Translations under genes and position numbers: made by a program
Assembly (NCBI GenBank): GCA_003565295.1
Contig: PXCO01000378.1
Coordinates: forward strand, 1-42,554
DNA length: 42,554 nucleotides
Direction: 5' to 3'
Source: Cyclobacteriaceae bacterium
GTDB lineage: Bacteria > Bacteroidota > Bacteroidia > Cytophagales > Cyclobacteriaceae
Shown here: one piece after another, positions 3 through 17,587 of the stretch
Position numbering within the stretch: the stretch's first letter is position 1
How the letters are laid out: each line of letters starts with the position of its first letter
The notes under the pieces: model-generated
What the model was told of the DNA's origin: nothing
What the model saw: the letters and a program-made list of their open reading frames with translations, nothing else
The model's database searches: none

Positions 3-1169
3 GCCAGAGACATTGAGGCCTATGTGGACTGGTTGGACATTCAATTTGAAAGAAAAAACCTCCCTTGGGAAAACTCACGATATTATCGCTATAGTTTCCA
101 AAGGTTCAAGGACAACTTTCCTGGCGCAGTATCCATTGACACCTTTTCCAGAAAAGATCCCCTGAGCAATACTGCCTCCATAGAGGTAAGAGATATTGAA
201 AGTCATAAAACGGCCACCCGAAGTGCCTTGCAATGGCTTTTAGGGGAAACCCCAAACGGCATTGCCCCTTTTCCTATTGAGGGATTGAGCACCCGGGAGG
301 ACTACCTCGATCAATTGATCAACCGGCCTAACCCCAAAAATGGCAAACGCCGCAACTTTGCCCCATACAATGCCATTGGGGATTACCAGTATGCCGCTTT
401 CTATTACCCCATAGATGGGGAGGGCCAAATGAAATTACCTGCCTCCGGAAAGCTGCCTGTCATCATTTGGACCCATAAATACGTGAATACAGGTTTTGAC
501 AATAAGCTTACCTCCCTTTTTGAAAAATTTTTGGACCGGGGGATTGCTGTGCTCTGCTTGGACATGATAGGCTATGGCAGCAGAATCGAGGAAGGAACGC
601 TCTTCTATGATCGTTACCCCTCTTGGTCCAAGGCAGGGAAAATGGTGGAGGATCTTAAAGCTGGCATTAGAGGGCTGGAAGACCTGGAATTTGTGGATAA
701 TGACAATATTTATTTAGGCGGGTATGCACTAGGGGGAAGCATTAGCCTGTTTACAGGGGTTCTAGAGGAAAAAGTGGCTGGAATTGCAGCTATAGCAGCT
801 TTTACCCCTTGGCGAAAGGCTGCTGACAACCCTGATTTAATGGGTGCAAAAGCCTTTTCCCATCTCTATGGTTTAATTCCCAAATTGGGTTATTTTTAAC
901 ATGAAGAGGATAGGATCCCAGTGGACTTCCCGGAAATGTTATCTGCCCTGGCGCCAAAGCCATTATTGGTAATTGCGCCTAGCCTGGATAGACATGCGGA
1001 AAAAGCAGATGTGGAAAATGCGGTAAATACGGCCAGGCTCTACTATCAAATGTCAGGAAACAACGATGCATTACAATTTCTCCAACCTATGCAATTCAAC
1101 CGGTTCACCTCTGAAATGGAAGATATCGTGAGCGATTGGGTACATCAACAAATTCATACAACCAAATAA
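3..1169 (+). pseudogene. Alpha/beta hydrolase (dienelactone-hydrolase/acetylxylan-esterase-like), 5'-truncated by the window and interrupted by an in-frame TAA
   Basis: The frame is open from base 3, so the gene begins upstream of the window. It shows an alpha/beta-hydrolase core: a LPVIIWTHKY strand before the oxyanion region, AVLCLDMIGYGSR, then GYALGG at the nucleophile elbow. A TAA at 897-899 stops translation after GYF. The same frame resumes with HEEDRIPVDFPEML and ALAPKPLLVIAPSLDR, which is the expected next strand and acid region of the fold, and ends at 1169. Because both halves share one frame, this is a single nonsense change and not a frameshift. The elbow serine of the usual GxSxG is Ala here. 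The next gene begins 59 nt later. The likely original role is a secreted esterase. It could be a decaying gene, a sequencing error at one base, or a readthrough case. Confidence 0.75.
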
Positions 1170-1228
1170 ACTCAACCCTGGCTTTCTTACCTGAGCTTCT
1201 TACAAAACACTCCATAAAAAAGTGCAAG

Positions 1229-3604
1229 ATGAACCCCTACAGTCATTATATCAAAATCACATTACTCTGTTCTCTATTCCTTTATAGGATGGAGGTACAT
1301 GGGCAGCAGGAAGAGGAGGTACAGTTACGTCTTTCTCTGTTCGATATGGACGCCACACCTCCCATTGGCACCCTGCTGGCATATGATCCCATGGAAGGAA
1401 GGAGTGAATTGGGGTTAAGGGCAAGAGGATTGGTAATCCAGGGAAATGGTTTGCCCATTGTGATCTGTGCCATTGATTGGATTGGGATTGCCAATGGTAG
1501 CCACGAAAGCTTAAAAGCCCAACTGGCTCAAGCTGTGGGCACTCACCCGGAAAGAGTGGCTGTACATGTTGTACACCAGCATGACGCCCCCATCAGTGAT
1601 TTTACCGCAGAGGCCATTTTAATGGACAATGGGCTTGCCCCTCAAGCATTTGAAGGCGATTGGCAAAGGAAATTTATGACAGAATTAGCCGATGCAGCCC
1701 AACATTCGATGAAATTCAGTCAACCCCTCACACATGTAGGTTATGGAACTGCTGAGGTGGAAAAAGTCGCCTCCAACCGGAGAATTGAAGGTGAAAACGG
1801 TGAAATCATTCATTCCAGGACCTCTTCCACCAAGGATCCGGAAATCCGTGCGTTCCCGGAAGGGCTCATTGATTCCGCTGTTTCCCTTGTCAGTTTTTGG
1901 AACGAGGAGCAGCCTTTGGCTGTATTGAGCTATTACGCCGTTCACCCTCAAAGTTATTATCTCACCAAAAAGGCAGACCCAGACTTTCCCGGCATTGCCA
2001 GATTTATGAGACAACTGGAAGTGCCTGAAGCTTTACACATACACTTCAACGGAGCCGGAGGAAACATAACAGCTGGAAAATATAATGATGGCAATAAGGT
2101 CAACAGAGGGGTTCTCGCCCGGCGTTTGGAAGAAGGTATGGCAAAAGCCTGGGCAAACACTCTAAAGTCACCCATCGCTCCCAATGACTTGGACTGGAAA
2201 TATGAAAACGTATTTCTTCCCGTAAACAAGCAAGTAGCGCAGATCGAAGAAGAAATGAAAGAAAAGGATCATCGTTGGTTGACCAATCATATGCAGAGAC
2301 TGGCCTGGAAATATCTCAGGGATAGGGGAAGGGGCACAGCGGTTTCCTGTTTATACTTGGGCAACACCCGGATCCTTCACTTACCAGGAGAGTTATTTGT
2401 GGAGTACCAGCTATATGCCAAATCTTTGAACCCCAACTTGCAGGTTGCCATGGCTGCGTATGGGGATTATGGCCCCTTTTATATAGGTGATTCCATCGCT
2501 TACCAAAAAGGTGGCTACGAAATAGCCTCCAGCCCCACCACCTGGAAGGCTGAAAGACTACTTAAATCCACTATCAATGCTGTCCTAGAACAAGAGGTAC
2601 TGTCTTTGGAGAATAATGCCGAAGAAGCCGGGGTTAAGTTTCCAAACTCCATAGATGCTTGGAATGAACAAATAGCAGGTTGGAAGGAAAGGATGGAAAG
2701 TATCATGGGGCAATTTCCGGACGCACCTTCCCATCCGCCAACCTATGAACTTTTGGACAGTTTGACAACCCCCTCCTACTCCAGGTATCATATTCATTAT
2801 TCCTCCACCCCTGACCAAATGGTGCCCGCTTACTTATATATACCTCGGGAAAAGATGCGGGAAAAATTGCCCGCAATTATGGCCCTTCACTCCACCGGTG
2901 CAGCGGGAAAGGGAATTGTGGATGGACAAAGTGAACTGGAAAACCGGGCGGTGGGAAAAGAACTAGCAGAAAGAGGTTACGTGGTCCTGGCACCCGATTA
3001 CCCCAGTTTTGGGGAATTGGCTAACCATGACTTTAGCACCGATGGTTTTGATTCGGGAACCATGCTTGCTATTTGGAACCATCGTAGGGGCATTGATCTC
3101 CTACAATCCTTACCTATGGTTGCCCCAGAACTGATTGGTGCCATTGGTCATTCCTTAGGAGGGCATAATGCCTTGTTCCTGGCTGCCTTTGATGAACGGG
3201 TGAAGGCCACGGTTAGCAGTTGTGGATGGACGCCTTTTACCCATTATAACATAGGCGAAGAAGCCTCAAAAAGATACGGGGGAAGATTGGGGCCCTGGGC
3301 TCAGGATAGGTACATGCCAAAGATCAAAGCCTATCTTGACCAAGAAAAGCTGCCCTTTGATTTCACCCATATCATAGGAAGTATTGCCCCAAGGGCAGTG
3401 TTCTCCAGTTCCCCTATAGGCGACGGCAACTTCAGTGTGGAGGGTGTCAAAGAAGTGGTGCCCCTATTAACATCCATTTACAGGTATTTTGGCATACCTG
3501 CAAATTTCAAGGTGGTGTATCCAAAGGTTGGACATGACTTTCCTGCAGATACAAGGGATACCGCCTATCAATTTTTAGACCAGCAGCTGGATTTTAGCCG
3601 ATAA
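1229..3604 (+). CDS. Secreted two-domain hydrolase: neutral-ceramidase-like N-terminus fused to a dienelactone-hydrolase-type alpha/beta hydrolase
   Basis: A 791-residue protein. I chose the ATG at 1229 because a signal peptide follows it (hydrophobic KITLLCSLFLY, then VHGQQ). An in-frame GTG at 1136 would add a non-signal extension and overlap the preceding gene. Residues about 30-480 resemble the neutral/alkaline non-lysosomal ceramidase N-terminal domain: FDMDATPPIGT opening, VVICAIDWIG, AVHVVHQHDAP, YAVHPQSYY, FNGAGGNIT. Residues about 560-790 form a separate alpha/beta hydrolase: LPAIMALHSTG, YVVLAPDYPSFGE, nucleophile elbow GHSLGG with Ser about 642, and His about 769 in GHDFP. Both domains look intact. 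The substrate is unknown; an amide or ester in a lipid or glycan is plausible. It lies 32 nt before the dehydrogenase gene and probably shares its transcript. Confidence 0.8.
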   Translation: MNPYSHYIKITLLCSLFLYRMEVHGQQEEEVQLRLSLFDMDATPPIGTLLAYDPMEGRSELGLRARGLVIQGNGLPIVICAIDWIGIANGSHESLKAQLAQAVGTHPERVAVHVVHQHDAPISDFTAEAILMDNGLAPQAFEGDWQRKFMTELADAAQHSMKFSQPLTHVGYGTAEVEKVASNRRIEGENGEIIHSRTSSTKDPEIRAFPEGLIDSAVSLVSFWNEEQPLAVLSYYAVHPQSYYLTKKADPDFPGIARFMRQLEVPEALHIHFNGAGGNITAGKYNDGNKVNRGVLARRLEEGMAKAWANTLKSPIAPNDLDWKYENVFLPVNKQVAQIEEEMKEKDHRWLTNHMQRLAWKYLRDRGRGTAVSCLYLGNTRILHLPGELFVEYQLYAKSLNPNLQVAMAAYGDYGPFYIGDSIAYQKGGYEIASSPTTWKAERLLKSTINAVLEQEVLSLENNAEEAGVKFPNSIDAWNEQIAGWKERMESIMGQFPDAPSHPPTYELLDSLTTPSYSRYHIHYSSTPDQMVPAYLYIPREKMREKLPAIMALHSTGAAGKGIVDGQSELENRAVGKELAERGYVVLAPDYPSFGELANHDFSTDGFDSGTMLAIWNHRRGIDLLQSLPMVAPELIGAIGHSLGGHNALFLAAFDERVKATVSSCGWTPFTHYNIGEEASKRYGGRLGPWAQDRYMPKIKAYLDQEKLPFDFTHIIGSIAPRAVFSSSPIGDGNFSVEGVKEVVPLLTSIYRYFGIPANFKVVYPKVGHDFPADTRDTAYQFLDQQLDFSR

Positions 3605-3636: not shown

Positions 3637-5748
3637 ATGAAACGTATATTCCTATTAGTGGCAATATGTACATTAAATATTGCCTGTAGCCCTCCCAAAT
3701 ACCCCGATCCTCTTAGCCCCGAAGATTCAATGGCAAGCTTTGAACTGCATGAGGATTTTGAAATCGAACTTTTTGCTGCGGAACCCCACGTTTGGGATCC
3801 AGTGGATCTGGTATTTGCCGAAGATGGTAAAATATATGTGGTAGAAATGCCTGATTACCCCTACCCTCCGGAGAAAGGAAAAGGTAAAGGCAGGATTAAA
3901 TTATTGGAAGACACCAATGGTGACGGTATAATTGACCATTCCCAGGTATTTGCTGAAGGGCTCGCCGACGCCACTAGCGTGTTGCCCTGGAAAGGGGGTA
4001 TTTTGGTCACCTCTGCTCCTTATATCTACTACCTCGAAGACACCAATGGAAACGGACAGGCCGACAGCAAAGAAGTGATTTTCTCCGGGTTTTTCGACAA
4101 CAATTCCGAGGCACAAATCACCAATTTACGTTTTGGGGTGGATAATTGGATTTATGCAGCCAACAACGGTCAGGCCGGAAAAGTGAGTTTTGCCAGAAAA
4201 CCGGATGCCGAACCCTTGGACACCAGAGGGGCTGATTTTAGGTTCAGGCTGGACAAAGATTTATTTGAATTAGAAAGCGGTACGGCCCAATTCGGACAGA
4301 CCTTTGACGATTGGAACAATAAGTACTTCACCCAAAACACCCTGCACATCCAGCAAAGCGTAATCCCCAGAAGGTATCTTGAAAGGCATGAGGGCATGCC
4401 TTCCAAAAACGTCAACCTCAATATATCGGACCACGATTTCACCATGTATCAACTTACCCCTCCACCCTATTGGAGGGCAGAAAGGACCCGCAGGAGAAAT
4501 AACCAATACCAAGAGCAGGGGCTAGATAGGGTGGAACATGCCGATAAGTATTTCACGGGTGCCTCAGGTGGGACTTATTATCACGGAGATGCCTTTGGGG
4601 ACGGGTATTACGGCAATATTTTTACCGGAGATGTGGCAGGAAATCTTATCCATAGAGATGTGATCGCTAGAAATAAGGAGGGGTATGGCTTTGTGGCCTC
4701 CAGGGCAGTGGACGAAAAAGACAGAGAGTTCCTGGCTTCCACTGATCCTTGGTTTAGGCCTGTAGGCTTCACGGTGGGACCGGACGGGTATCTGTACGTT
4801 ATTGATTTTTACAGACAGCATATAGAAACCCCTGTTTCTATTCCTGATGATCTAAAGGAGGAAATGGACTTTATGTATGGGGAGAACCATGGAAGAATTT
4901 ACAGGATAAAACCTAAAAATGAATCCCAGCAGAAGACCCACGTAGTCAATCTCACTTCAGCAACAAGCTCGCAACTAATGGGACTATTGGCCCACCCCAA
5001 CGGCTGGTACAGGCTAAATGCCCAACGCATGCTGGTAGAAAACCCGGATAAGGACTTACTCGGGGAGGCAATTTCCTTAGCACATAAGCACAAAGACCCT
5101 AGGACCAGGCTTCATGCAGCCTATCTCGTAGAAGCCTGGGACGGCTTGAGTCCTGCCTTTATTGAGGAATTGCTGAAAGATGAACATCCCGAGATACGAA
5201 GACATGCCCTGATCCTGGCAGAGAAATTCCCTTCATTGAGAAAAAATATCCAAGAAGCCACTGAGGATCAAAATAGTGCAGTGGTATTTCAAGCCTTATT
5301 AAGTTTAGGAAATTTCACCGATGAGGAAGCAGCCCGTGTTTTAGCAAAAACCTTATCCACTACCGGCGAATCGAAATGGCATAGAATGGCGGTAGTGAGT
5401 GCTCCCGTTAGCTTAAAAAGCCCCATGCTTAAAGCCCTAAAAGAATTGAGTTTCTTTGAGAAAAAGGAAGATTGGAAGCAGGAATTTAGTAGTGAATTAG
5501 CCATGGCCTACGGTCTAATCGGAAACCCAGACCTTATACAGGACCTTATCAGGTATTTTGAAAAAGAAATTGCCTGGGCAGAAGGCAACCTGGCCTGGCA
5601 TGATGGATTAAGGAAAGGCCTTCAAATCCATGGAAAGGAAAACGAGGCCTTGCAAGCATCACTTGAATTATGGGATAGACAATCTGAGCAAGCTGAAGGT
5701 ACGGATACTGAAATCCTACTGGCGGCTCTTCAACACCTACACCCATGA
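3637..5748 (+). CDS. Piru/PVC-type putative membrane-bound dehydrogenase lipoprotein (beta-propeller plus HEAT-like C-terminus)
   Basis: A 703-residue lipoprotein with lipobox NIAC at residues 14-17. Residues about 35-420 match the soluble glucose-dehydrogenase-like propeller family often annotated as 'putative membrane-bound dehydrogenase' (TIGR02604-like): FEIELFAAEPHVWDPVDLVF, GKIYVVEMPDYPYP, GTYYHGDAFGDGYYGNIFTGD, DPWFRPVGFTVGPDGYLYVIDFYR. Two calcium-loop-like motifs, DTNGDGIID (about 92) and DTNGNGQAD (about 135), sit in the propeller. The C-terminal third is helical and HEAT-like (HPNGWYRLNAQRML, RLHAAYLVEAW, HPEIRRHALILAE). Many relatives end in a c-type cytochrome, but no CxxCH is present here. 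Its stop overlaps the start of the HiPIP gene (ATGA), suggesting a redox pair. The substrate is unknown; a sugar or alcohol is likely. Confidence 0.8.
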   Translation: MKRIFLLVAICTLNIACSPPKYPDPLSPEDSMASFELHEDFEIELFAAEPHVWDPVDLVFAEDGKIYVVEMPDYPYPPEKGKGKGRIKLLEDTNGDGIIDHSQVFAEGLADATSVLPWKGGILVTSAPYIYYLEDTNGNGQADSKEVIFSGFFDNNSEAQITNLRFGVDNWIYAANNGQAGKVSFARKPDAEPLDTRGADFRFRLDKDLFELESGTAQFGQTFDDWNNKYFTQNTLHIQQSVIPRRYLERHEGMPSKNVNLNISDHDFTMYQLTPPPYWRAERTRRRNNQYQEQGLDRVEHADKYFTGASGGTYYHGDAFGDGYYGNIFTGDVAGNLIHRDVIARNKEGYGFVASRAVDEKDREFLASTDPWFRPVGFTVGPDGYLYVIDFYRQHIETPVSIPDDLKEEMDFMYGENHGRIYRIKPKNESQQKTHVVNLTSATSSQLMGLLAHPNGWYRLNAQRMLVENPDKDLLGEAISLAHKHKDPRTRLHAAYLVEAWDGLSPAFIEELLKDEHPEIRRHALILAEKFPSLRKNIQEATEDQNSAVVFQALLSLGNFTDEEAARVLAKTLSTTGESKWHRMAVVSAPVSLKSPMLKALKELSFFEKKEDWKQEFSSELAMAYGLIGNPDLIQDLIRYFEKEIAWAEGNLAWHDGLRKGLQIHGKENEALQASLELWDRQSEQAEGTDTEILLAALQHLHP

Positions 5749-6083
5749 AGAGGAGAAAAGCGATCAAAGATCTAATGGGAATACTATTTGGGGCCTGTGC
5801 CTTTTCTGAAGTGGTTTCCTGTGCTGAAAAAGCAAAAGAGTATGATTTATCAATGGCGGAAAATTGTGGCGATTTAGAAGGGCTGGATGATGCTGAAATA
5901 TCCAAAAGAAACCAGTTAGGATATACCGAAGAGACCCCCATAGAGGAGAATACCTGTGGCAATTGCCAATTATACCTTCCTCCAAAAGAGGATCAACCTT
6001 GTGGAGGCTGCCAACTTTTTAAAGGACCTGTATACGAGAAGGCTTACTGTACCTATTGGGCACCCAGGGTAGCAAATACTTAG
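5745..6083 (+). CDS. High-potential iron-sulfur protein (HiPIP), exported
   Basis: A 112-residue protein. The C-terminal half carries the full HiPIP ligand pattern: CGNCQ (C71, C74), GCQLF (C89) and YCTYW (C102), matching the family's CxxCQ...GCQLFxG...WCxxW layout for one [4Fe-4S] cluster. C86 is an additional cysteine. The N-terminus KRRKAIK followed by a hydrophobic stretch is a Tat-type signal, fitting export of a folded Fe-S protein. VVSC at 23-26 could also be a lipobox. The start codon overlaps the previous stop (ATGA), so it is translationally coupled to the Piru-type dehydrogenase and is the natural candidate for its periplasmic electron acceptor. The HiPIP assignment is strong; the partnership is inferred. 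Confidence 0.9.
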   Translation: MKRRKAIKDLMGILFGACAFSEVVSCAEKAKEYDLSMAENCGDLEGLDDAEISKRNQLGYTEETPIEENTCGNCQLYLPPKEDQPCGGCQLFKGPVYEKAYCTYWAPRVANT

Positions 6084-7970: not shown

Positions 7971-9620
7971 TCATTTCAGCTCCACCACTTCTATAAAAAT
8001 AGCTTCACCGGATGTGGATGAAATGGAAATTCCTTCCACCAAGTCGGTACCACTTACTCTTTTAGTATCACCAGTATTTTTAAATATTAATTCATACTGC
8101 TGATCTCTTTCCACAGTGAACCATTCCGGCAGTTGGTTTATCCTGGGATAGTCCATTGGCAGGTTAAATATCTCTCTGTGCCGGGGATAATCAAATTTCA
8201 AGATGCCCTCCCAGGCAATCTCTGGGAAAATGGAAACCTTAATCCCCTTATCAGTAGCTTTGGCTCCCAGGTATACGTCCTTATTCCAAGGATGAAGGCT
8301 AGTGCCCTGCGTTTTCCAAAGGCTGTACATGATACTGGTACGTGCAAAATTACCATCCCCATGCCACCCTTCAATGATGCCTGTTCCTCTATAGGCCTCT
8401 GTTCCACTTCTATGAGCAGAATCCTGCATGGACCACATCACATGGATCTGGCTGTTGATCCAATCTTCTGCTGCTGCTACCTGCTCTCTATTATACAGGT
8501 TCAATGCACTCTCTATGGCATCCGCATAACCATCTGCACTTCCCCTTTCCCAATCGTAGTACTCATAGTGATGCAAATTCCCAAAAGCCTGTAATAAAGC
8601 GTCACGGTACCTATCCACACTATCCAGCATATATACTGAATAGTAGGCATTGTAGGTGTATCCCCAGGTATCTGCTATTCCTTTGTCCAGTATTTCCCCG
8701 GTGATGGGGTTTACCTGGTTATAGAAAAGTCCATGTTCGTTGGTTCCAACTTCTAAAATGCTGTCCAGCAATTCATAAATGGGTTGGCGATAAGCTTCAT
8801 GTTTATCCGGTTCGGCATAAGCAGTACTCACATATACCTCACAAAGACCTGATACGATTTCACAACCATGATCCCTTAACCTTAATACCTCCTGGTCCCG
8901 GGTGGGGTGATTCTCACCAAGTAAATAAAAATCAGCCAGGCGCATGCCCCAGTCCAGGTATTTTTGATCGCCCGTCATCCAATAAACCCTGGAAAGTGCC
9001 TGCATCAACTCTCCATTCACCTCAACATTGAAAGAGGGAATAGGCCCAAATGGAGTGGTTTTAGTGGCATGCTTCCAAATATCATCCAGCAAATCAATCA
9101 TACGTTCCGACCAGGGGGTTTCTCCGATATATTCGGTGAGGGGCAATAAACCGTCCTTCACATACTCGGAGGCTCCAAAAATAATGGCTTCCAAGTCGAT
9201 TTCTTCATTGACAAAGTCCTCCTTGGCAAAGGAATAATCATCCGGTAACCTGTCCAGCCTATTGGTCAATCGTTGTTCGGTTTCAAGTATTGCCCTCATT
9301 TTACCTTCGTATAAATCCTTGTCCAAAATTGCAGCTGTCAAAACCATGAAGGGGTAATTATCCGCTGCGGCATCCTTGGCGTTCCATAGGTCACTGGATT
9401 CGTGAAGGTTCCTGGGGATGAGCCCGGATTTCGGATCAGCGTGTTGTAGCCAGGCCTGGACAAATTCCCAACATCTTTGGTAACTTTCTTGAGCTAAATA
9501 GGCATTTTCTAAGGCAGTTTGAAATTCAGCATCTATTTCCTCTTCCTTCTTTCCACACCCACAAATTAGGGAAATGGAAAAGGAAAGGAGTAATAGAATA
9601 GCAATTTTGGTTTGGGTCAT
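7971..9620 (-). CDS. Lipoprotein resembling (alpha/alpha)-barrel glycosidases, function unknown
   Basis: A 549-residue lipoprotein with signal AILLLLSFSISLICGC (lipobox ICGC). The body is strongly helical with repeated Trp/Tyr-rich motifs (YPFMVLTAAILD, ELMQALSRVYWMTGDQKYLDWG, DTWGYTYNAYYSVY, YYDWERGSADGYADAIESALNLYNRE, GIIEGWHGDGNFART). These are typical of six-hairpin (alpha/alpha) enzymes such as unsaturated glucuronyl or other polysaccharide hydrolases. About the last 100 residues look beta-rich. Acidic residues in DxE and WxD settings could be catalytic, but I cannot assign a GH family. It is divergent from the sugar operon starting at 10010 and shares its 389-nt upstream region, which suggests a common carbohydrate theme. 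Confidence 0.65.
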   Translation of the reverse strand: MTQTKIAILLLLSFSISLICGCGKKEEEIDAEFQTALENAYLAQESYQRCWEFVQAWLQHADPKSGLIPRNLHESSDLWNAKDAAADNYPFMVLTAAILDKDLYEGKMRAILETEQRLTNRLDRLPDDYSFAKEDFVNEEIDLEAIIFGASEYVKDGLLPLTEYIGETPWSERMIDLLDDIWKHATKTTPFGPIPSFNVEVNGELMQALSRVYWMTGDQKYLDWGMRLADFYLLGENHPTRDQEVLRLRDHGCEIVSGLCEVYVSTAYAEPDKHEAYRQPIYELLDSILEVGTNEHGLFYNQVNPITGEILDKGIADTWGYTYNAYYSVYMLDSVDRYRDALLQAFGNLHHYEYYDWERGSADGYADAIESALNLYNREQVAAAEDWINSQIHVMWSMQDSAHRSGTEAYRGTGIIEGWHGDGNFARTSIMYSLWKTQGTSLHPWNKDVYLGAKATDKGIKVSIFPEIAWEGILKFDYPRHREIFNLPMDYPRINQLPEWFTVERDQQYELIFKNTGDTKRVSGTDLVEGISISSTSGEAIFIEVVELK

Positions 9621-10009: not shown

Positions 10010-10798
10010 ATGCTAAAAGGCAAGAACATCGTCATCATTGGGGGTACAAGTGGAATAGGACTTGCCTCAGCCAAGCATATGATAAACCTTGGAGCAAATG
10101 TGCTGGTGACCGGAAAAGCAGATCAACATATCATAATGGCAAAGGAGGAATTGAAGGAAAATGCTGAGATTCTAGACCTGGATGCCACGTTAGAGGGTAC
10201 AGCTGAAACAGCCCTTCTGCGATGTGAAAGTAGTTTTGGTCAGGTGAATGGACTCTTCCATGTGGCCGGTGGCAGTGGCAGAAGTCATGGAGACGGCCCA
10301 TTGGAAAACCTTTCGCTGGAGGGATGGAATTATACCTTACACCTTAACCTCACCTCCCTTATGCTTTCCAACAGGGCCATGGTTAAATACCTTCTGGAAA
10401 AAAAATCAGCAGGTGCCATACTCAACCTTGGGAGTGTGCTGGCCAGACACCCTTCACCAAAGTATTTCTCCACACACGCCTACGCTGCGGCTAAGGCGGC
10501 CATAGAGGGTTTTAGTACTTCCATTGCTGCGTATTACGCTAACCAAAGTATTCGTGTCAATGTCATCTGCCCTGGGCTTATTACTACACCTATGGCCAAT
10601 AGGGCCGCAAATGACCCTCTTATTCAATCTTTTGTAAACACCAAACAGCCCCTTGACCTGGGCCGCATGGGGACCCCCGAGGATATTAGCGGACTGGCTT
10701 GCCTACTCCTTTCTGATCAATCCAAATTTATCACAGGACAATGCATAGCCGTAGACGGTGGATGGGGTATCAGTGAAGGCCAATATGGAAAACAATGA
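10010..10798 (+). CDS. SDR family oxidoreductase (NAD(P)-dependent), first gene of the sugar operon
   Basis: A 262-residue classical short-chain dehydrogenase/reductase. The nucleotide-binding glycine motif GGTSGIG is at about 11-17. The catalytic triad is visible as Ser 142 (NLGSVL), Tyr 158 and Lys 162 (YAAAK). The C-terminal VNVICPGLITTPM and GQCIAVDGGWG are typical of the family. The ATG at 10010 is chosen because LKGKNIVIIGG follows it, as usual for SDRs; an ATT/ATG upstream at 9974 would add 12 atypical residues. Its stop overlaps the kinase start (ATGA). In this context it probably oxidises or reduces a sugar or sugar-acid hydroxyl; the substrate is unknown. Confidence 0.9.
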   Translation: MLKGKNIVIIGGTSGIGLASAKHMINLGANVLVTGKADQHIIMAKEELKENAEILDLDATLEGTAETALLRCESSFGQVNGLFHVAGGSGRSHGDGPLENLSLEGWNYTLHLNLTSLMLSNRAMVKYLLEKKSAGAILNLGSVLARHPSPKYFSTHAYAAAKAAIEGFSTSIAAYYANQSIRVNVICPGLITTPMANRAANDPLIQSFVNTKQPLDLGRMGTPEDISGLACLLLSDQSKFITGQCIAVDGGWGISEGQYGKQ

Positions 10799-11670
10799 AT
10801 AAAATTGGCATAGACATAGGAGGCACCAATATCAAAGGCATTGTGCTGGACACACAGCATGATGTAGTGTACAAAACTACCGTGCCTACCAAAGATGCAG
10901 GAAATGAGGACTGGAAGAAAATAGTGCTCCAGGTTTATGAAATGCTCAAAAATAAAGCGGGTGCCAATTTCAGTTTAGGCCTTTCCGCTCCTGGCCTTGT
11001 CAATCCCGATAATACCACCATCCTTCATATGCCGGGAAGATTAAAGGGGCTTACCCAATTAATTTGGGGGGATTATTTGGGTTTTCCTTGTAAAGTAGTG
11101 AATGATGCCCACGCTGCCATTCTGGCTGAACACCACCTGGGAGTTGGACGCGGATATCAACATCTCATTATGCTCACCTTGGGTACGGGTGTGGGAGGAG
11201 GAGTGATCATCAATGGTGAGCTTTATCAGGGTGAATTGGGTAGAGCCGGCCATCTGGGCCATATTTCGGTACATAGAAAAGACTTCCTGGACATCACAGG
11301 AACACCGGGAAGCCTTGAAGATGCATTGGGCAATGCCAATATCTCCAAAAGGTCCTTTGGTTTATACCACCAAAACGAAGAGGTTTACACCCATTATCAG
11401 AAAGGAGAACCCATTGCTACTTACATTTGGCTCAATATGATTAGAGACTTGGCAGCGGCACTTGCCTCTTTGGTCAATGCCTTTTCTCCCGAAGTTATTA
11501 TCCTCGGAGGGGGCATGGCAGCAGCCAAAGAGGGCCTGACAGGGCCTTTGGGGGCATTTATGAACCTCTTTGAGTGGCAACCCTCGGGACACAGGACCCC
11601 TATCCGATTGGCCACACAGGGAGCTTATGCTGGAGCTATGGGAGCAGCCGTTTTTGGGGCACTAAAATAG
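10795..11670 (+). CDS. ROK family protein (probable sugar kinase) lacking the zinc-binding cysteines
   Basis: A 291-residue ROK protein. The phosphate-1 motif IGIDIGGTNIKG is at residues 4-15, the catalytic Asp is about 104 in NDAHAA, the phosphate-2 motif is LTLGTGVGGGVI, and the adenosine motif is VIILGGGMA near the C-terminus. There is no N-terminal DNA-binding domain, so it is a kinase and not a repressor. The usual zinc site (HxxG followed by CxCGxxGC) is altered: GHLGH at 149-153 is followed by TGTPGSLEDALG, with Ser and Gly where cysteines are expected. The start overlaps the SDR stop (ATGA). It likely phosphorylates the pathway's sugar in the cytoplasm. Confidence 0.88.
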   Translation: MNKIGIDIGGTNIKGIVLDTQHDVVYKTTVPTKDAGNEDWKKIVLQVYEMLKNKAGANFSLGLSAPGLVNPDNTTILHMPGRLKGLTQLIWGDYLGFPCKVVNDAHAAILAEHHLGVGRGYQHLIMLTLGTGVGGGVIINGELYQGELGRAGHLGHISVHRKDFLDITGTPGSLEDALGNANISKRSFGLYHQNEEVYTHYQKGEPIATYIWLNMIRDLAAALASLVNAFSPEVIILGGGMAAAKEGLTGPLGAFMNLFEWQPSGHRTPIRLATQGAYAGAMGAAVFGALK

Positions 11671-11702
11671 TATTTATTTCTACTTATTTAGATCAATTTC
11701 AC

Positions 11703-12497
11703 ATGTCAACACCTATCGCGCAGTACCTATCCAAATGCAGGACCATTACCGATACAATTGAAAAACAGCAGAAAGCCATCCAACAAGCAGCCCAATGGTT
11801 TGCCGAAACTATTATAAGCGGAAGAATGGTTCACGTATTCGGCTCAGGGCATAGCCGGATTATGGTGGAAGAAATGTGGCCCAGATACGGGTCTTTTCCC
11901 GGCTTCAACCCAATAGTGGAGCTTTCATTGACCTTCCATAACCTGGTGGTAGGGGCAAACGGCCAAAGGCAGGCCATGTTTTTAGAGAATGTGCCGGGAC
12001 TTGCCCCTAGAATACTAAGAAACTTTAACCTTTCTGAGCTGGACTCAGCTTTGATCATCTCCTCAAGCGGCTGCAATATTGTTCCCGTGGAAATGGCAGA
12101 ATGTTTCCAAAAGCAAGGCATAAAGGTAGTAGCCTTAGTGACCAAAGACCACTGCGCAGATAGTAAGAGCAAAAGGGAGGACGGTAAAAGATTAACTGAT
12201 TTTGCAGATTTGATCTTAGATACAGGGGCACCTTCAGGAGATGCCATGGTAAATGTGGAAGGACTGGAAACTCCGGTAGCACCCGGGTCCACTGTGGGTG
12301 GGGCAATGATGATCAACTGTATCAAGGCCGTACTCGCTGATATACTGACCAAAGGGGGACATCCCCCAAGGGTCCTTACCGGTGCAGCTGTGGTAGGTGC
12401 AGAGAGGTCCGCTGCCCTTTTCGAATCTGCCTATGATGAACATGCCCAGCGCCTTTCATCACTTTATCGAAATGTAGAACAAAGTCATCAACCATGA
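11703..12497 (+). CDS. SIS-domain protein (UPF0309-like), probable phosphosugar isomerase or hydrolase
   Basis: A 264-residue protein. The start at 11703 (MSTPIAQYL) is preferred; the frame is open back to 11574, but that part overlaps the kinase. The SIS signature is clear: MVHVFGSGHSR (GSGHSR 47-52), then ALIISSSGCNIVPVEMA, VALVTK and a GAPSGDAMV strand. The GxNGQRQAMFLENVPGLA segment resembles the UPF0309 SIS group. SIS proteins bind phosphosugars and act as isomerases, amino-sugar deaminases, etherases or sensors. Position after a sugar kinase fits a phosphosugar substrate. It lies 32 nt from the kinase gene and its stop overlaps the FAD gene start (ATGA). Confidence 0.85.
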   Translation: MSTPIAQYLSKCRTITDTIEKQQKAIQQAAQWFAETIISGRMVHVFGSGHSRIMVEEMWPRYGSFPGFNPIVELSLTFHNLVVGANGQRQAMFLENVPGLAPRILRNFNLSELDSALIISSSGCNIVPVEMAECFQKQGIKVVALVTKDHCADSKSKREDGKRLTDFADLILDTGAPSGDAMVNVEGLETPVAPGSTVGGAMMINCIKAVLADILTKGGHPPRVLTGAAVVGAERSAALFESAYDEHAQRLSSLYRNVEQSHQP

Positions 12498-13885
12498 ATT
12501 CCATCATCAACACTTCCAAGTTACGGGTATTGGCTGAAGTAGATATATTAGTCGTAGGCGCAGGCTCAGCCGGGGCGGTGGCTGCCATTGCCGCTGGCAG
12601 GTTTCATTCCGGCCCTGTAATGTTGATCGAAAGGTACGGCTTTCCCGGTGGCACCTCCACCCAAATGCTGGACACCTTTTATGGGTTCTTCACCCCTGGA
12701 GAATATCCAAGAAAGGTGGTTGGAGGAATACCGGACATAGTGGTCAACCACCTCCATCTGAGCGGTGATATCTTCTTAAGGCCTAACACCTATGGGGCCG
12801 GAACTGGTGTGAATTACAACCCGGAGCGGCTCAAATTCGTCTGGGATCAACTGATTCAGGAAGCGGGGGTGTCCTATCTCCTTCATACCACCCTGGTGGA
12901 GGTGAGCTCCGAAGAAAGCTCGGGAAGCCATGCCTGCGTGGTCTTCAACAAAGAGGGGTTTTTCCTTATCAAGGCTAAAAGGGTGATCGATGCAAGTGGA
13001 GATGCCGATTTTTGCCATTTGGCAGGTCATTCATATGAATTGGCCGGAGAGAAGGAACCTGCCCAAAGCATGACAACCACCTTTCGCATGGCCAATGTGG
13101 ACTTAGAGGCTTATCAGAAAGCGGGCGGCAAAAAAATGCTGATGGAGAAAATGGAGCAGGCAGTGAGTAAGGGACATCATCCTCTCCCGCGCAAACAGGG
13201 CTCCGCGCACGAAATGGTGCAGCCCAAATGTATAAGTACTGTAGCAGTAAAGGTTGCTGACTTGAAGGCTTACAAGGTGGATGAACTTACCCAAGCAGAA
13301 ATAGAAGGAAGAAAGCAGTCATTTATCTATGAAAAGTTTTTCAGAGATGAAGTTCCAGGGTATGAGCATGCCAAAATCATCGGACTTTCCCATCAAATCG
13401 GCGTGAGAGAAACCAGAAGGGTGTATGGAATGAAACGGCTCACAAAAGAAGACTGCCTGGAAGGCAAGATACCTGAAGACGGTATACTTCTTTGCGGAGC
13501 ACCCATAGAAGATCATAGAAAGTCCAGCGATGGAAGTTCTGAAACCATATGGGAATATATTCCCGGAGACGGGATGTATGGAGTGCCATATGGCACCATA
13601 GTCCCCTGCAAGAGTCACATTACCTGGGTGGTAGGCCGGTGCTTTTCGGCTACCCATGATGCACACGCTTCCTGTAGATCCATGGGTCAGACCATGTCTA
13701 TGGGTCAGGCGGCCGGGTTAGCGGCTAGTATTTCTATAAAGTCAGACCTTTCTGCAAGAGAAATCCCAGTATCCCTACTACAAGATATGCTCATTAACAT
13801 AGGGGCTGTCTTAGAGGTCCCACAAGAAAAAGCTGACACCAGTAGAGAGGGGTGGGGAAATAACCGAAATCCAAAAGCACTATGA
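12494..13885 (+). CDS. FAD-dependent oxidoreductase (FAD_oxidored family)
   Basis: A 463-residue flavoprotein with the Rossmann dinucleotide motif VGAGSAGAVAA (GAGSAG 22-27) and YGFPGGTST. A VIDASGDADFCHLAGH segment is typical of the FAD_oxidored (Pfam 12831-like) group that often sits in sugar-utilisation loci. The C-terminal GQAAGLAASI is the expected closing FAD contact. The start overlaps the SIS stop (ATGA) and the stop overlaps the phosphotriesterase start (ATGA), so four genes form one translationally coupled chain. The likely role is oxidation of a sugar or a derived alcohol or lactone precursor. The substrate is not deducible from sequence. Confidence 0.85.
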   Translation: MNSIINTSKLRVLAEVDILVVGAGSAGAVAAIAAGRFHSGPVMLIERYGFPGGTSTQMLDTFYGFFTPGEYPRKVVGGIPDIVVNHLHLSGDIFLRPNTYGAGTGVNYNPERLKFVWDQLIQEAGVSYLLHTTLVEVSSEESSGSHACVVFNKEGFFLIKAKRVIDASGDADFCHLAGHSYELAGEKEPAQSMTTTFRMANVDLEAYQKAGGKKMLMEKMEQAVSKGHHPLPRKQGSAHEMVQPKCISTVAVKVADLKAYKVDELTQAEIEGRKQSFIYEKFFRDEVPGYEHAKIIGLSHQIGVRETRRVYGMKRLTKEDCLEGKIPEDGILLCGAPIEDHRKSSDGSSETIWEYIPGDGMYGVPYGTIVPCKSHITWVVGRCFSATHDAHASCRSMGQTMSMGQAAGLAASISIKSDLSAREIPVSLLQDMLINIGAVLEVPQEKADTSREGWGNNRNPKAL

Positions 13886-14832
13886 AATCCTTTTTTAGAA
13901 CCGTTTTGGGAGATCTCCCCAGTGAAAAAATGGGGGTGACTTATTCCCATGAGCACATCATCATAGAGCATAGCCTCCCCACCGATCAAAATCCGGCATT
14001 TCTGCTTAATGATGTTGATAAGGTAAGCCGGGAGCTTAAGGAGGTATACAAGGCCGGCGGGAGAACCATGGTGGATACAATGCCCTCCAATTGTGGCAGG
14101 AACGTGGAAAAACTGGCTGCCGTATCCAAGGCTTCCGGGATACAAATCATTGTACCCACGGGCATTCACCTGGAAATCTATTACCCTCCTCATCATTGGA
14201 GATACAGCTATAAGGAGGATCAGCTGGCTGAATTATTTATTGCCGATATAGAGCAGGGAGTGGACCGGTATGATTATGCCGGCCCCATAGTGGAGCGAAC
14301 CTCCCACAAAGCAGGAATGATCAAGCTTGCCACGGGGGATGATCCCATTTCTGATCATCAGGACAAGATTTTCAGGGCAGTGACCTCTGCCCACATTCAG
14401 ACCGGTGCCCCCATCCTTACCCATACCAATTTTGGTAATCAAGCCATTGAGCAAGTTGAGCGGTTTTCAAAATACGGTGCTGATCTTAACCATGTCGTAC
14501 TTTCACATGTGGACAGAAAATTTGACATCATTTATCATAGGGATTTGTTGCAAACGGGTGTAAGGGTAGAATACGATAGTGCCTTTAGATGGAAAGACAC
14601 CAACTATACCTACCTGCTGTTGGAAAAGCTATTGCCCGAGTTTCCGGATCAAATCACGGTGGGCATGGATGCCGCCAAACATACCTATTGGAAAAGTTAT
14701 GGAGGGGAGCCTGGATTGGATTTCTTACTCACCACTTTTGTGAAAAAACTGGAAGATATTGGCCTTTCCTCTTATTTTGACAAATTGTTTGTGGAAACCC
14801 CATCACGGCTATATGCTTTCAAAAAATCATGA
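13882..14832 (+). CDS. Phosphotriesterase-family metal-dependent lactonase/hydrolase
   Basis: A 316-residue amidohydrolase-superfamily protein of the PTE/PHP group (COG1735). The binuclear metal ligands are in place: H23 and H25 (SHEH), bridging Lys 148 (GMIKLATG), H181 (LTHTNFGN), H209 (LSHVD) and D263 (GMDAAK). Some characterised relatives hydrolyse sugar lactones, including phosphorylated ones, instead of organophosphates. That fits a step after an oxidoreductase in this operon. It is ATGA-coupled to the FAD gene upstream. A further ATG overlaps its own stop and opens a 31-codon ORF. Confidence 0.88.
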   Translation: MKSFFRTVLGDLPSEKMGVTYSHEHIIIEHSLPTDQNPAFLLNDVDKVSRELKEVYKAGGRTMVDTMPSNCGRNVEKLAAVSKASGIQIIVPTGIHLEIYYPPHHWRYSYKEDQLAELFIADIEQGVDRYDYAGPIVERTSHKAGMIKLATGDDPISDHQDKIFRAVTSAHIQTGAPILTHTNFGNQAIEQVERFSKYGADLNHVVLSHVDRKFDIIYHRDLLQTGVRVEYDSAFRWKDTNYTYLLLEKLLPEFPDQITVGMDAAKHTYWKSYGGEPGLDFLLTTFVKKLEDIGLSSYFDKLFVETPSRLYAFKKS

Positions 14833-14924
14833 AATCGAGCGACACACGTGGGGGTGCCCTGAGCTATGGGGGCATGGCGAGATTCCTCCCGATAGCCATC
14901 GGGATAACCAATAAAAAGCAATAA
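14829..14924 (+). CDS. Possible 31-residue ORF, ATGA-coupled to the lactonase gene
   Basis: ATG at 14829 overlaps the lactonase TGA in the same ATGA arrangement used at three other junctions of this operon. The ORF runs 31 codons to TAA at 14922-14924, four bases before the next gene. Its 3' half (residues RFLPIAIGITNKKQ) is made from a palindromic repeat found elsewhere in the window. A second copy near 21177-21251 can be read as a similar short peptide (LFLSVAIGMTIERQL). The coding potential may therefore be a by-product of the repeat. No family is recognised. Confidence 0.3.
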   Translation: MKSSDTRGGALSYGGMARFLPIAIGITNKKQ

Positions 14925-14934
14925 ACTTATGAAA
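14877..14934 (+). repeat. Palindromic dispersed repeat, copy A
   Basis: Core CCCGAT-AGCC-ATCGGG (14888-14903) is a 6-bp hairpin with a 4-nt loop. It is preceded by GCGAGATTCCT and followed by an A-rich tail CAATAAACTTATGAAA, whose ATG is the start of the DUF4380-like gene. Copies B (21162-21230) and C (42464-42554) share core and tail; all point toward a downstream gene. Confidence 0.7.
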
Positions 14935-15858
14935 ACCCTTTCATTCACTATTTCCTTGATTTTGTTCCTTACCTACTCTTCAGCCATCCATGGTGGTGTG
15001 GAAATCGTCACCCACAGAGGATGGAAGGGCTGTTACAGGTTGTTCAATGCGCATAGTGAAGTCATTATCAATCCCCACACGGGGGCAAGGGTAATGGTAT
15101 TTGCCACTAAGGGGGAGAACATCATCTTCGAAAACCCCGCACAAGACGGCAAATCCTTTCAGGACTGGAAAGATTCCAATTATGACCCGGATGGGGGCAG
15201 GTTGGACTATGGGCCAGAAATGGAAACCAGAAAACTTCACCAACTCACTTGGATGGGGCCTTGGTCAGTGGAAGTGACAGGCGCTTTTTCTATTCGAATG
15301 AGCAGCGAAAAAGATGAACAACTGGGGTTGTATTCCCAAAGAATCTTCACTTTGGATCCCCAATCCCCCAAATTGACCATCACCCAAATCGGAGAAAACA
15401 TCAGCACTGATACGCTGAGCAGGCATTTTTGGAGTAGAACGCTTGTGAAACCCGGGGGCATTATGACCCTGCCTGTGGATGAAATTAACAGCCGTTTTCT
15501 GAAAGGAGCTGGTAAATTTGCCTGGAACCCCAGTCGGATTGAAGAGGAATGGGAAGATGAAAGGGTTTGGATAAAGGGGGGAATCCTTCATTTCCATGCG
15601 GTGGGTGGTACCTTTAAGGCAGGCACGGATTCCAAGGAAGGATGGATGGCCTATCAGGTGGGCAAGGTGAGAATGCTCAAGCGTTTCCCGGTTTTCCCTC
15701 AAGAAGACTACAGCGGCAGCGAACACATGAGCGGCATATTTTTCAGTAATGGAAAATTTGCTGAAATGGAACCCTGTGGCCCCACACATACTTTGGCTCC
15801 TGAAGAAAGTTTTAGTTTTACAGAGGAGTGGGAGTTGGAGGTTATGGATGGAGGGTAA
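14929..15858 (+). CDS. Secreted DUF4380-like protein (galactose-mutarotase-like fold)
   Basis: A 309-residue protein with signal peptide MKTLSFTISLILFLTYSSA. The mature N-terminus WKGCYRLFNAHSEVIINPHTGARVMVFATKGENIIFENP resembles the opening of DUF4380 proteins, which look like aldose epimerases: an all-beta carbohydrate-binding sandwich. No clear mutarotase His/Glu pair can be assigned by eye. It lies 96 nt after the lactonase gene, beyond copy A of the repeat, and probably shares the operon. A periplasmic sugar-binding or sugar-modifying role is inferred from context. Confidence 0.6.
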   Translation: MKTLSFTISLILFLTYSSAIHGGVEIVTHRGWKGCYRLFNAHSEVIINPHTGARVMVFATKGENIIFENPAQDGKSFQDWKDSNYDPDGGRLDYGPEMETRKLHQLTWMGPWSVEVTGAFSIRMSSEKDEQLGLYSQRIFTLDPQSPKLTITQIGENISTDTLSRHFWSRTLVKPGGIMTLPVDEINSRFLKGAGKFAWNPSRIEEEWEDERVWIKGGILHFHAVGGTFKAGTDSKEGWMAYQVGKVRMLKRFPVFPQEDYSGSEHMSGIFFSNGKFAEMEPCGPTHTLAPEESFSFTEEWELEVMDGG

Positions 15859-16123: not shown

Positions 16124-17587
16124 TCAATCCCTCAACAACTTCTTAAGCTTTTCCCTTACCCTTACAAATTCCGGGTTATTGGCTAAGTTATTAAACTCCT
16201 TAGGGTCAATATCATGGTCATAGAGTTGCGCACCACGTTTACCCTCATCCCATTCAATGTATCGCCAACGCTCAGTTCTCACTGCTCGCCCCATAAAATC
16301 ATCGGGCAATCGCCTTACTTGGGTTAATGCAGGGTAATCCCAGTCCGTTTCCGGGTTGCGAAGTAAAGGGCTCAAATCTTTTCCTGCCAGGTATGCAGGG
16401 GCTTCCAACCCACATAAACTTGCCAAAGTGGGATACATGTCGATCAGTTCCACTACTCTTCTGCTGGGCTTTCCGTTTCCTTCCATGCCCGGTGCGGAGA
16501 TATAAAAGGGCACCCTGGCGGACTCCTCAAACAAACTTTGCTTTTTCCACTGACCATGTTCTGTAAGATGATACCCGTGATCACTCCAAAAGACGACAAT
16601 GGTATGGTCTGCTAAACCCAGCTCCTCAAGTGCGTCCAATAATCTTCCCACCTGTGCATCCACAAAACTAACCGAAGCATAGTAGGCACGGATCACTTCT
16701 TTCCGTTGACTCTCCGTAAGGTCCCAATAGAGTGGATGGGTCCAAAAAGCAGGTTTGGGTATATCCTCGAGATGCCCTTCGGGTTCCTCTGGAAGCTTTA
16801 TTGCCTCCAATGGGTATAAGTCAAAGTATTTTTTCGGTGCTATGTAAGGACAATGCGGACGGAAAAAGCCAGCAGCAATAAAAAAAGGTTCGTCCACATG
16901 GGCTTTCATCATCCTAATTGCCTCATCTGCCACCATGGCATCAGTCTGCTCCTCATCCCCTCCGTCAGCCGCCAAAAAAGACAATGAACTTCCGAGCCCC
17001 CTTTTTGGGGTATAGTTGGTGAGTAGATGTTCATCGGCCTTGTCCCTTCCTTTGGGGTTGGCCACTTCATGCCAGGATTGGGGGTCATCCAATCCATTGG
17101 TACCGATGTCCCCAGGAACACCGTAATGAAAAATTTTTCCAGACCTTGCCACAAAGTATCCATTTTCCTTGAAAAGTTGGGGCAAGGTGGTCACCGTTGG
17201 GATGTTGTCCCTAAAATTGGTCTTCAGATCATAAACCAGGGTGGTGTCTGGCCTTAGTCCCGTCATGATGGAAACCCGGCTTTGGCTGCATTGTGGATAC
17301 TGGCAATATGCTTTCTCAAACAACACTCCCATTTCGGCCAACTTGTCAATATTGGGGGATTTCACCAAGGGATGACCATAACTTCCCAAATGGTTGTTCA
17401 GGTCATCCGAGGCAATAAACAAGACATTATAAGGCCTATCATCATTCAACTGACCCTGCACCTGATTACACATAAACATCAGGGATAAAGTGAAAATGAA
17501 GATCCTTAATGGAAGAATGGAAAATATGTGTTGTCTCCTTTGATTGAAGAGGCAAAACACCCAGGGATATAACTGGAAATTCATCAT
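16124..17587 (-). CDS. Secreted sulfatase, iduronate-2-sulfatase-like
   Basis: A 487-residue sulfatase. The N-terminus has a long charged lead, then a hydrophobic signal (LRIFIFTLSLMFMC) ending near VQGQ. The metal-binding start is FIASDDLNNHLGSYG (D61, D62). The activation site is CSQSR (C100, R104), followed by VSIMTG. The usual Pro of CxPxR is Gln here; Cys and Arg are kept. SDHGYHLTEHGQWKKQSLFEE and FFRPHCPYIAPKKYFDLYP match the iduronate-2-sulfatase-like S1 group. The Cys must be converted to formylglycine by an unlinked maturase. It converges on the sugar operon and may desulfate a related glycan. Confidence 0.88.
   Translation of the reverse strand: MMNFQLYPWVFCLFNQRRQHIFSILPLRIFIFTLSLMFMCNQVQGQLNDDRPYNVLFIASDDLNNHLGSYGHPLVKSPNIDKLAEMGVLFEKAYCQYPQCSQSRVSIMTGLRPDTTLVYDLKTNFRDNIPTVTTLPQLFKENGYFVARSGKIFHYGVPGDIGTNGLDDPQSWHEVANPKGRDKADEHLLTNYTPKRGLGSSLSFLAADGGDEEQTDAMVADEAIRMMKAHVDEPFFIAAGFFRPHCPYIAPKKYFDLYPLEAIKLPEEPEGHLEDIPKPAFWTHPLYWDLTESQRKEVIRAYYASVSFVDAQVGRLLDALEELGLADHTIVVFWSDHGYHLTEHGQWKKQSLFEESARVPFYISAPGMEGNGKPSRRVVELIDMYPTLASLCGLEAPAYLAGKDLSPLLRNPETDWDYPALTQVRRLPDDFMGRAVRTERWRYIEWDEGKRGAQLYDHDIDPKEFNNLANNPEFVRVREKLKKLLRD

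Follow-up and report, generated by a model that had tools for sequence, protein, structure and literature searches.

The window analysed here is a stretch of 42,554 nucleotides of contig PXCO01000378.1 of a Cyclobacteriaceae bacterium (assembly GCA_003565295.1), and the system in question is a tight five-gene operon on its forward strand (10010-14832). It encodes, in order, an SDR-family dehydrogenase, a ROK-family sugar kinase, a SIS-domain protein, a flavin adenine dinucleotide (FAD)-dependent oxidoreductase and a phosphotriesterase (PTE)-family enzyme, and is followed by the gene of a secreted protein in the same orientation (Table 1). Three ATGA overlaps tie together the SDR and ROK genes (10795-10798), the SIS and FAD genes (12494-12497) and the FAD and PTE genes (13882-13885); 32 nucleotides separate the ROK and SIS genes, and 96 separate the PTE gene from that of the secreted protein. 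The first-pass annotation of this DNA had described the operon in these terms, and its genes, overlaps and coordinates were borne out, with the Pfam matches of the five core genes lying far over their cut-offs. The host genome measures 5.6 Mb, and its nearest named relative found is Pleomorphovibrio marinus (Cyclobacteriaceae), whose SIS protein is 85% identical to that of the window.

Table 1. Genes of the operon and the adjoining secreted-protein gene, with predicted functions
Product	Position	Strand	Supporting match
SDR-family NAD(P) dehydrogenase; putative C1 (lactol) dehydrogenase	10010..10798	+	PF13561 adh_short_C2 2.9e-51
ROK-family sugar kinase lacking the zinc-binding cysteines typical of the family	10795..11670	+	PF00480 1.2e-45
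SIS-domain protein of the UPF0309/NagS family; putative phosphosugar dehydratase	11703..12497	+	SIS_2 2.4e-33; NF002805
FAD-dependent oxidoreductase	12494..13885	+	PF12831 FAD_oxidored 1.1e-87
PTE-family enzyme; putative phospho-furanose (1,4-) lactonase	13882..14832	+	PF02126 3.4e-44
Secreted mutarotase-like protein (DUF4380/TTE1925-like), accessory	14929..15858	+	NF052227 2.3e-14, below cut-off

Comparison of gene neighborhoods revealed that the first three genes constitute a conserved cassette. In a family set of 196 genomes the SIS gene has 18 further orthologs (64-85% identity), and in all 16 of those with enough upstream DNA the SDR and ROK genes lie directly upstream in the same order; in the remaining two a contig end cuts off the upstream DNA. 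FAD and PTE genes follow the SIS gene in 8 of the 18. This gene order is far beyond chance. In a wider, non-random sample of 91 Bacteroidota loci, picked by SIS similarity, both SDR and ROK genes are present at 64 of the 76 loci with sufficient upstream sequence, and the cassette is followed by the FAD-PTE pair at 23 loci, by a MetE-like zinc protein at 48 and by both at 6. The five enzymes had been proposed to form a unit; they do co-occur, but the invariant part is SDR-ROK-SIS only, with FAD-PTE being one of two exchangeable downstream modules. The pattern is hence broader than first perceived, being that of a recurrent cassette with exchangeable modules, and the original account of five enzymes plus a mutarotase is narrower than the data.

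The alternative module is typified by the MetE-like protein, which is the commonest gene 3' of SDR-ROK-SIS in Bacteroidota (e.g. L113:10776-11801 and about 50 further loci), retains the zinc ligands HxC...E...C and is often followed by a UlaG-like lactonase. On the tree of the SIS proteins, a quick tree with many weak branches, the module states switch at least 16 times. This repeated exchange on a single core suggests, without proving it, that the two modules have related functions, and both the PTE-family and the UlaG-like proteins are candidates for phospho-lactonases.

The SIS protein is a member of the UPF0309 family (NF002805, 258 bits against a cut-off of 135), and its sole relatives in the PDB by sequence are 3cvj and NagS (9eol, E 1.6e-23), the only characterised solved member of this family. 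NagS dehydrates N-acetylglucosamine 6-phosphate (GlcNAc-6P) to 6P-chromogen I, opening a toxicity pathway in Streptomyces; its mutants H53A, R64A, E94A and D179A are dead, and S91A and N228A are strongly impaired (PMC12680351). The residues H53, S54, R64, E94, S119 and D179 are invariant in the window protein and 74 aligned orthologs, and the phosphate serine S121 is present in the window protein and in 72 of the 74. Retention of the essential residues, combined with loss of S91 and N228, points to a protein whose mode of action on a phosphosugar probably resembles that of NagS, with a different substrate; an annotation as NagS is not warranted. A generic or rearranging isomerase label, in line with the phosphosugar rearrangement assigned to it earlier, was set aside, as a NagS-type phosphosugar dehydratase fits the family and residues better. 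SIS relatives outside Bacteroidota are found in nagE-nagA-nagB-gntR-SIS gene sets in Priestia and Planococcus and in a nagA-ABC-ROK-GntR-SIS set in Martelella, neighbors that would keep amino sugars in play. The host genome also encodes a SIS paralog of 34% identity (L040; G000:C282:35801-36544), which has no SDR, FAD or PTE gene alongside and lies some 7 kb from nagB as part of a ROK-MFS-SIS set, where the ROK frame upstream of it appears shortened (170 residues).

The best NCBIfam match of the SDR protein is the glucose 1-dehydrogenase PRK07231, which falls below the cut-off, and its nearest models are those of glucose 1-dehydrogenase and gluconate 5-dehydrogenase. Two of its segments, GGSGR.GDGPL and SVL..P.P.YF.THAYA..K, are conserved in 58 orthologs. 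The kinase scores 156.8 bits with PF00480, above the gathering score, and possesses the DxGGT and catalytic ND motifs of ROK proteins (GIDIGGT and VNDAHAA, both conserved). A zinc motif, CxCGxxGCxE, is typical of the ROK family but dispensable in some members; here the corresponding stretch reads AGHLGHISVHRKDFLDITGTPGSLED and is free of cysteine. The nearest solved relatives of the kinase are glucokinases, followed by beta-glucoside and N-acetylmannosamine kinases.

The FAD enzyme matches PF12831 over its full length (residues 17-433; 295.5 bits, cut-off 27), and a PDB sequence search with it gave no match. The nearest folds to its AlphaFold model (predicted local distance difference test score 76) are geranylgeranyl reductase and flavocytochrome c3 fumarate reductase, with Z about 17; this appears to be a generic flavoprotein fold, from which no reaction is claimed, and possible roles of the enzyme are those of an additional dehydrogenase or of a C=C reductase. 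The PTE-family protein possesses the complete binuclear metal site (HxH, K, H, H, D; H23, H25, K148, H181, H209 and D263), the ligands being common to the Deinococcus and Listeria proteins described below. Its best curated NCBIfam model is the phospho-furanose lactonase NF045706 (187 bits), and it is about 32% identical to the mycoplasma enzyme of that name. Its relatives occupy the lactonase place in mycoplasma ula operons, where UlaG is otherwise missing, and the same point has been made for swine mycoplasmas (PMC4866288). The family hydrolyses D-xylono- and L-arabino-1,4-lactone 5-phosphates (reviewed in PMC10971088). The position in the ula operons and the UlaG-like protein of the alternative module both point to a 1,4-lactone 6-phosphate.

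Further gene sets of this kind were recovered outside Bacteroidota, where the spread was sampled through plasmid records only. A Deinococcus aetherius plasmid carries an ABC transporter, an FGGY kinase, an SDR, a FAD enzyme (51% identical to that of the window), a PTE-family protein (36%), a 2-keto-3-deoxy-6-phosphogluconate (KDPG) aldolase and a SIS protein. The co-occurrence of the five families elsewhere, on which the first-pass annotation had staked its operon, is thus seen: the five stand together at other loci, and Deinococcus has four of them along with a kinase of another family. Listeria combines an ascorbate-type phosphotransferase system, a PTE-family protein, a creatininase-family protein, a KDGP aldolase and a SIS protein, and Alicyclobacillus (L131) has the PTE, creatininase and KDGP aldolase genes. 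The PTE-creatininase-KDGP aldolase sets of L131 and of Listeria monocytogenes (L122) resemble a related, undescribed pathway of Bacillota, and a literature search found the Listeria genes named only in a transcriptome paper. In L152, a Bacteroidota genome with the full set, genes for a KDPG aldolase and DgoK are convergent and lie next to the PTE gene. Within the Bacteroidota locus set there is no KDPG aldolase, DgoK or creatininase, and therefore a KDPG end point rests on the other taxa and on L152. At the genome level, PF01081 aldolases are encoded by all 19 family genomes with a SIS ortholog versus 134 of the 177 without one (Fisher p = 0.016, uncorrected for kinship), and the host genome has two such genes outside the operon.

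These observations allow a tentative reading of the operon, held at somewhat less than an even chance, as a cytoplasmic catabolic route running through a kinase, SIS dehydration, C1 oxidation and phospho-lactone opening to a KDPG-type acid. The substrate would be a hexose-type sugar, possibly an N-acetylhexosamine. The ROK kinase would make its 6-phosphate, and the NagS-like dehydratase would open the ring and remove the C3 hydroxyl, with water lost across C2-C3, to give a 2,3-unsaturated furanose 6-phosphate or the 3-deoxy-2-keto equivalent. The SDR, perhaps along with the FAD enzyme, would oxidise C1 to produce a 1,4-lactone 6-phosphate, the PTE-type lactonase would open this lactone to a 2-keto-3-deoxy (KDPG-type) acid or an amide precursor, and the acid would be cleaved by a KDPG aldolase whose gene lies in another part of the genome. 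The reaction order was earlier taken from the order of the genes, an argument that we have dropped, since the one does not reveal the other. The more general proposal of a catabolic operon, probably combining a kinase, a phosphosugar enzyme, oxidation and a lactonase, is supported by the co-occurring families. The specific scheme of dehydrating first and oxidising later, in which a hexose or N-acetylhexosamine 6-phosphate would pass through an unsaturated furanose phosphate and an ascorbate-like lactone phosphate to KDPG, we consider somewhat unlikely.

Several observations weigh against this catabolic reading. NagS homologs of 26-36% identity from other taxa had nil or negligible activity on GlcNAc-6P (PMC12680351), and the two NagS substrate contacts are altered, with S91 giving way to Q or M in the window (depending on the alignment) and likewise not retained among the 74 orthologs, and N228 replaced by A in the window and kept in 13 of the 74. 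The FAD enzyme is hard to place in the scheme, as the C=C reductases that lead among its fold neighbors tie with monooxygenases, and the 187 bits of the PTE-family protein compare with an equivalog cut-off of 630 for NF045706. The methionine-synthase-like (MetE-like) module finds no explanation in a sugar cassette, the FGGY kinase of the Deinococcus set argues against an amino sugar there, and neither an aldolase nor a deacetylase is encoded in or near the window operon.

Such difficulties have to be set against those of other routes. The kinase of Deinococcus would find a natural place in an oxidative pathway for a sugar other than an amino sugar, in which the SDR oxidises C1, the ROK kinase phosphorylates and the PTE-type enzyme opens an aldono-1,4-lactone phosphate; dehydration by the SIS protein would be absent, this protein being instead an aldose-ketose or other phosphosugar isomerase, with the FAD enzyme oxidising a ring carbon. 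The pentono-lactone phosphates hydrolysed by the PTE family, the affinities of the SDR to sugar dehydrogenase models and a PTE relative that adjoins the galactonate dehydratase gene dgoD in Enterococcus are all consistent with such a route. It is nevertheless unlikely, given that the SIS protein retains all the residues essential for dehydration by NagS and that its family is tied to nag genes elsewhere. A second alternative, which appears less probable still, derives from 3-keto-glycosides: a released 3-keto sugar or its enol would be phosphorylated and oxidised to an ascorbate-like 2-en-1,4-lactone phosphate, to be opened by the PTE or UlaG-like lactonases. The commonest neighbors of FAD-PTE loci are indeed Gfo/Idh/MocA dehydrogenases (11 of 81) and AP_endonuc_2 proteins (6 of 81), GMC oxidoreductases occur among these neighbors and beside the Haliscomenobacter set, and the replacement of UlaG by the PTE in mycoplasmas is in keeping with such a lactone; yet neither the window operon nor that of Pleomorphovibrio has a Gfo/Idh/MocA dehydrogenase or AP_endonuc_2 lyase next to it, and many loci are likewise without them. 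That the enzymes serve metabolite repair, clearing damaged or dehydrated phosphosugars (6P-chromogen I, phospho-lactones) rather than feeding growth, is very improbable: NagS begins a toxicity pathway and enzymes that open phosphorylated lactones may serve in repair, but many copies are flanked by glycosidases, transporters and regulators of the GntR or AraC type, which together with the patchy presence of the FAD enzyme (12 of 395 genomes) is the pattern of catabolic genes.

The secreted protein had been labelled DUF4380-like and counted as a member of the system. Its PF14315 (DUF4380) score of 13.9 bits fails the curated cut-off of 29.4; the TTE1925-family mutarotase model NF052227 matches better, at 53 bits against a cut-off of 550, and a PDB sequence search with the protein gave no match. 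Among the loci of the set, the gene is found in the window and, at the same place, in Pleomorphovibrio (L021) only, and it is accessory rather than core. In Pleomorphovibrio the ortholog begins two nucleotides past the PTE stop codon, a spacing that makes co-transcription with the operon probable in this genus, and the protein probably helps to supply the right anomer. The gap between the two genes in the window contains a near-perfect palindrome (CCCGATAGCCATCGGG, 14888-14903) in a single copy for the entire window, and the equivalent gap in Pleomorphovibrio is just two bases.

The sulfatase noted earlier as a flank was found downstream, at 16124-17587. Divergent from the operon, on the minus strand (7971-9620), lies the gene of a 549-residue secreted protein without any Pfam family over cut-off and with at most a weak match to GH127; its ortholog occupies the same position in Pleomorphovibrio. 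Farther away, 3637-6083 encodes a PVC-type DUF7133/HEAT protein and then a high-potential iron-sulfur protein, a pair that recurs in Pleomorphovibrio and in L024 at about 10 kb or less from the SIS cassette, and 1136-3604 encodes an 822-residue protein whose N-terminal part weakly matches neutral ceramidases and whose C-terminal part resembles glucuronyl esterases. The Bacteroidota promoter consensus (TTTG-N17-23-TANNTTTG) has no match near the operon, its matches in the window being no more than chance; scans of the window recovered 9 sigma-70 promoters versus 9.8 expected and 11 terminators versus 7.3 +/- 2.7 expected, neither of which is informative.

Each enzyme family of the operon is known. 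Together they probably form a route of sugar breakdown that has not been described before, and there is a moderate chance that its catabolic logic is genuinely new. Open-access full texts, whose coverage is incomplete, yielded no paper on the gene combination, on UPF0309 with a SIS domain, on TTE1925 or on DUF4380, and to this extent the claim that no described pathway has this set survived. Should the scheme of dehydrating first and oxidising later hold, it would be the first productive, catabolic use of NagS-type chemistry, known so far as a toxicity pathway of Streptomycetaceae only, and such use would be spread across Bacteroidota, Deinococcota and perhaps Bacillota. If the SIS protein is indeed a dehydratase, the central catabolism of amino sugars or hexoses would gain a branch, and the chemistry of 6P-chromogen I would acquire a physiological setting beyond Streptomyces. 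Most UPF0309/SIS proteins, PF12831 flavoproteins and PTE-type lactonases, all of them widespread, have no assigned substrate, and the cassette makes all three testable together.

Among known systems, the SIS protein shares with NagS (SCO4393) the UPF0309/SIS_2 family and the seven retained residues, but it is distant, has S91 and N228 replaced and lacks dmdR1 in its context. The mycoplasma phospho-furanose lactonase provides the best curated model for the PTE-family protein and has the same metal site, but the two differ in that the identity is low, the score is far under the equivalog cut-off and the mycoplasma gene sits in a ula operon rather than with ROK-SIS-FAD. The 3-keto-glycoside pathway of Bacteroidota, that is glycoside 3-oxidation, is a frequent genomic neighbor, but its signature genes are missing from the window operon. 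The L-ascorbate 6-phosphate (Ula) pathway differs in the import and oxidation of its substrate and in its UlaD/E/F-type genes, which the window operon lacks, and resembles the proposed route in the opening of a phospho-lactone and in the UlaG-like protein of the alternative module. Entner-Doudoroff type pathways, both semi- and non-phosphorylative (DgoK/DgoA), employ a dehydratase of the Edd or enolase-superfamily type, whereas here it would be the SIS protein, acting before oxidation, and the window operon has no aldolase; they share with the proposed route C1 oxidation, lactone opening, dehydration and, in the Deinococcus version, a KDPG-type aldolase.

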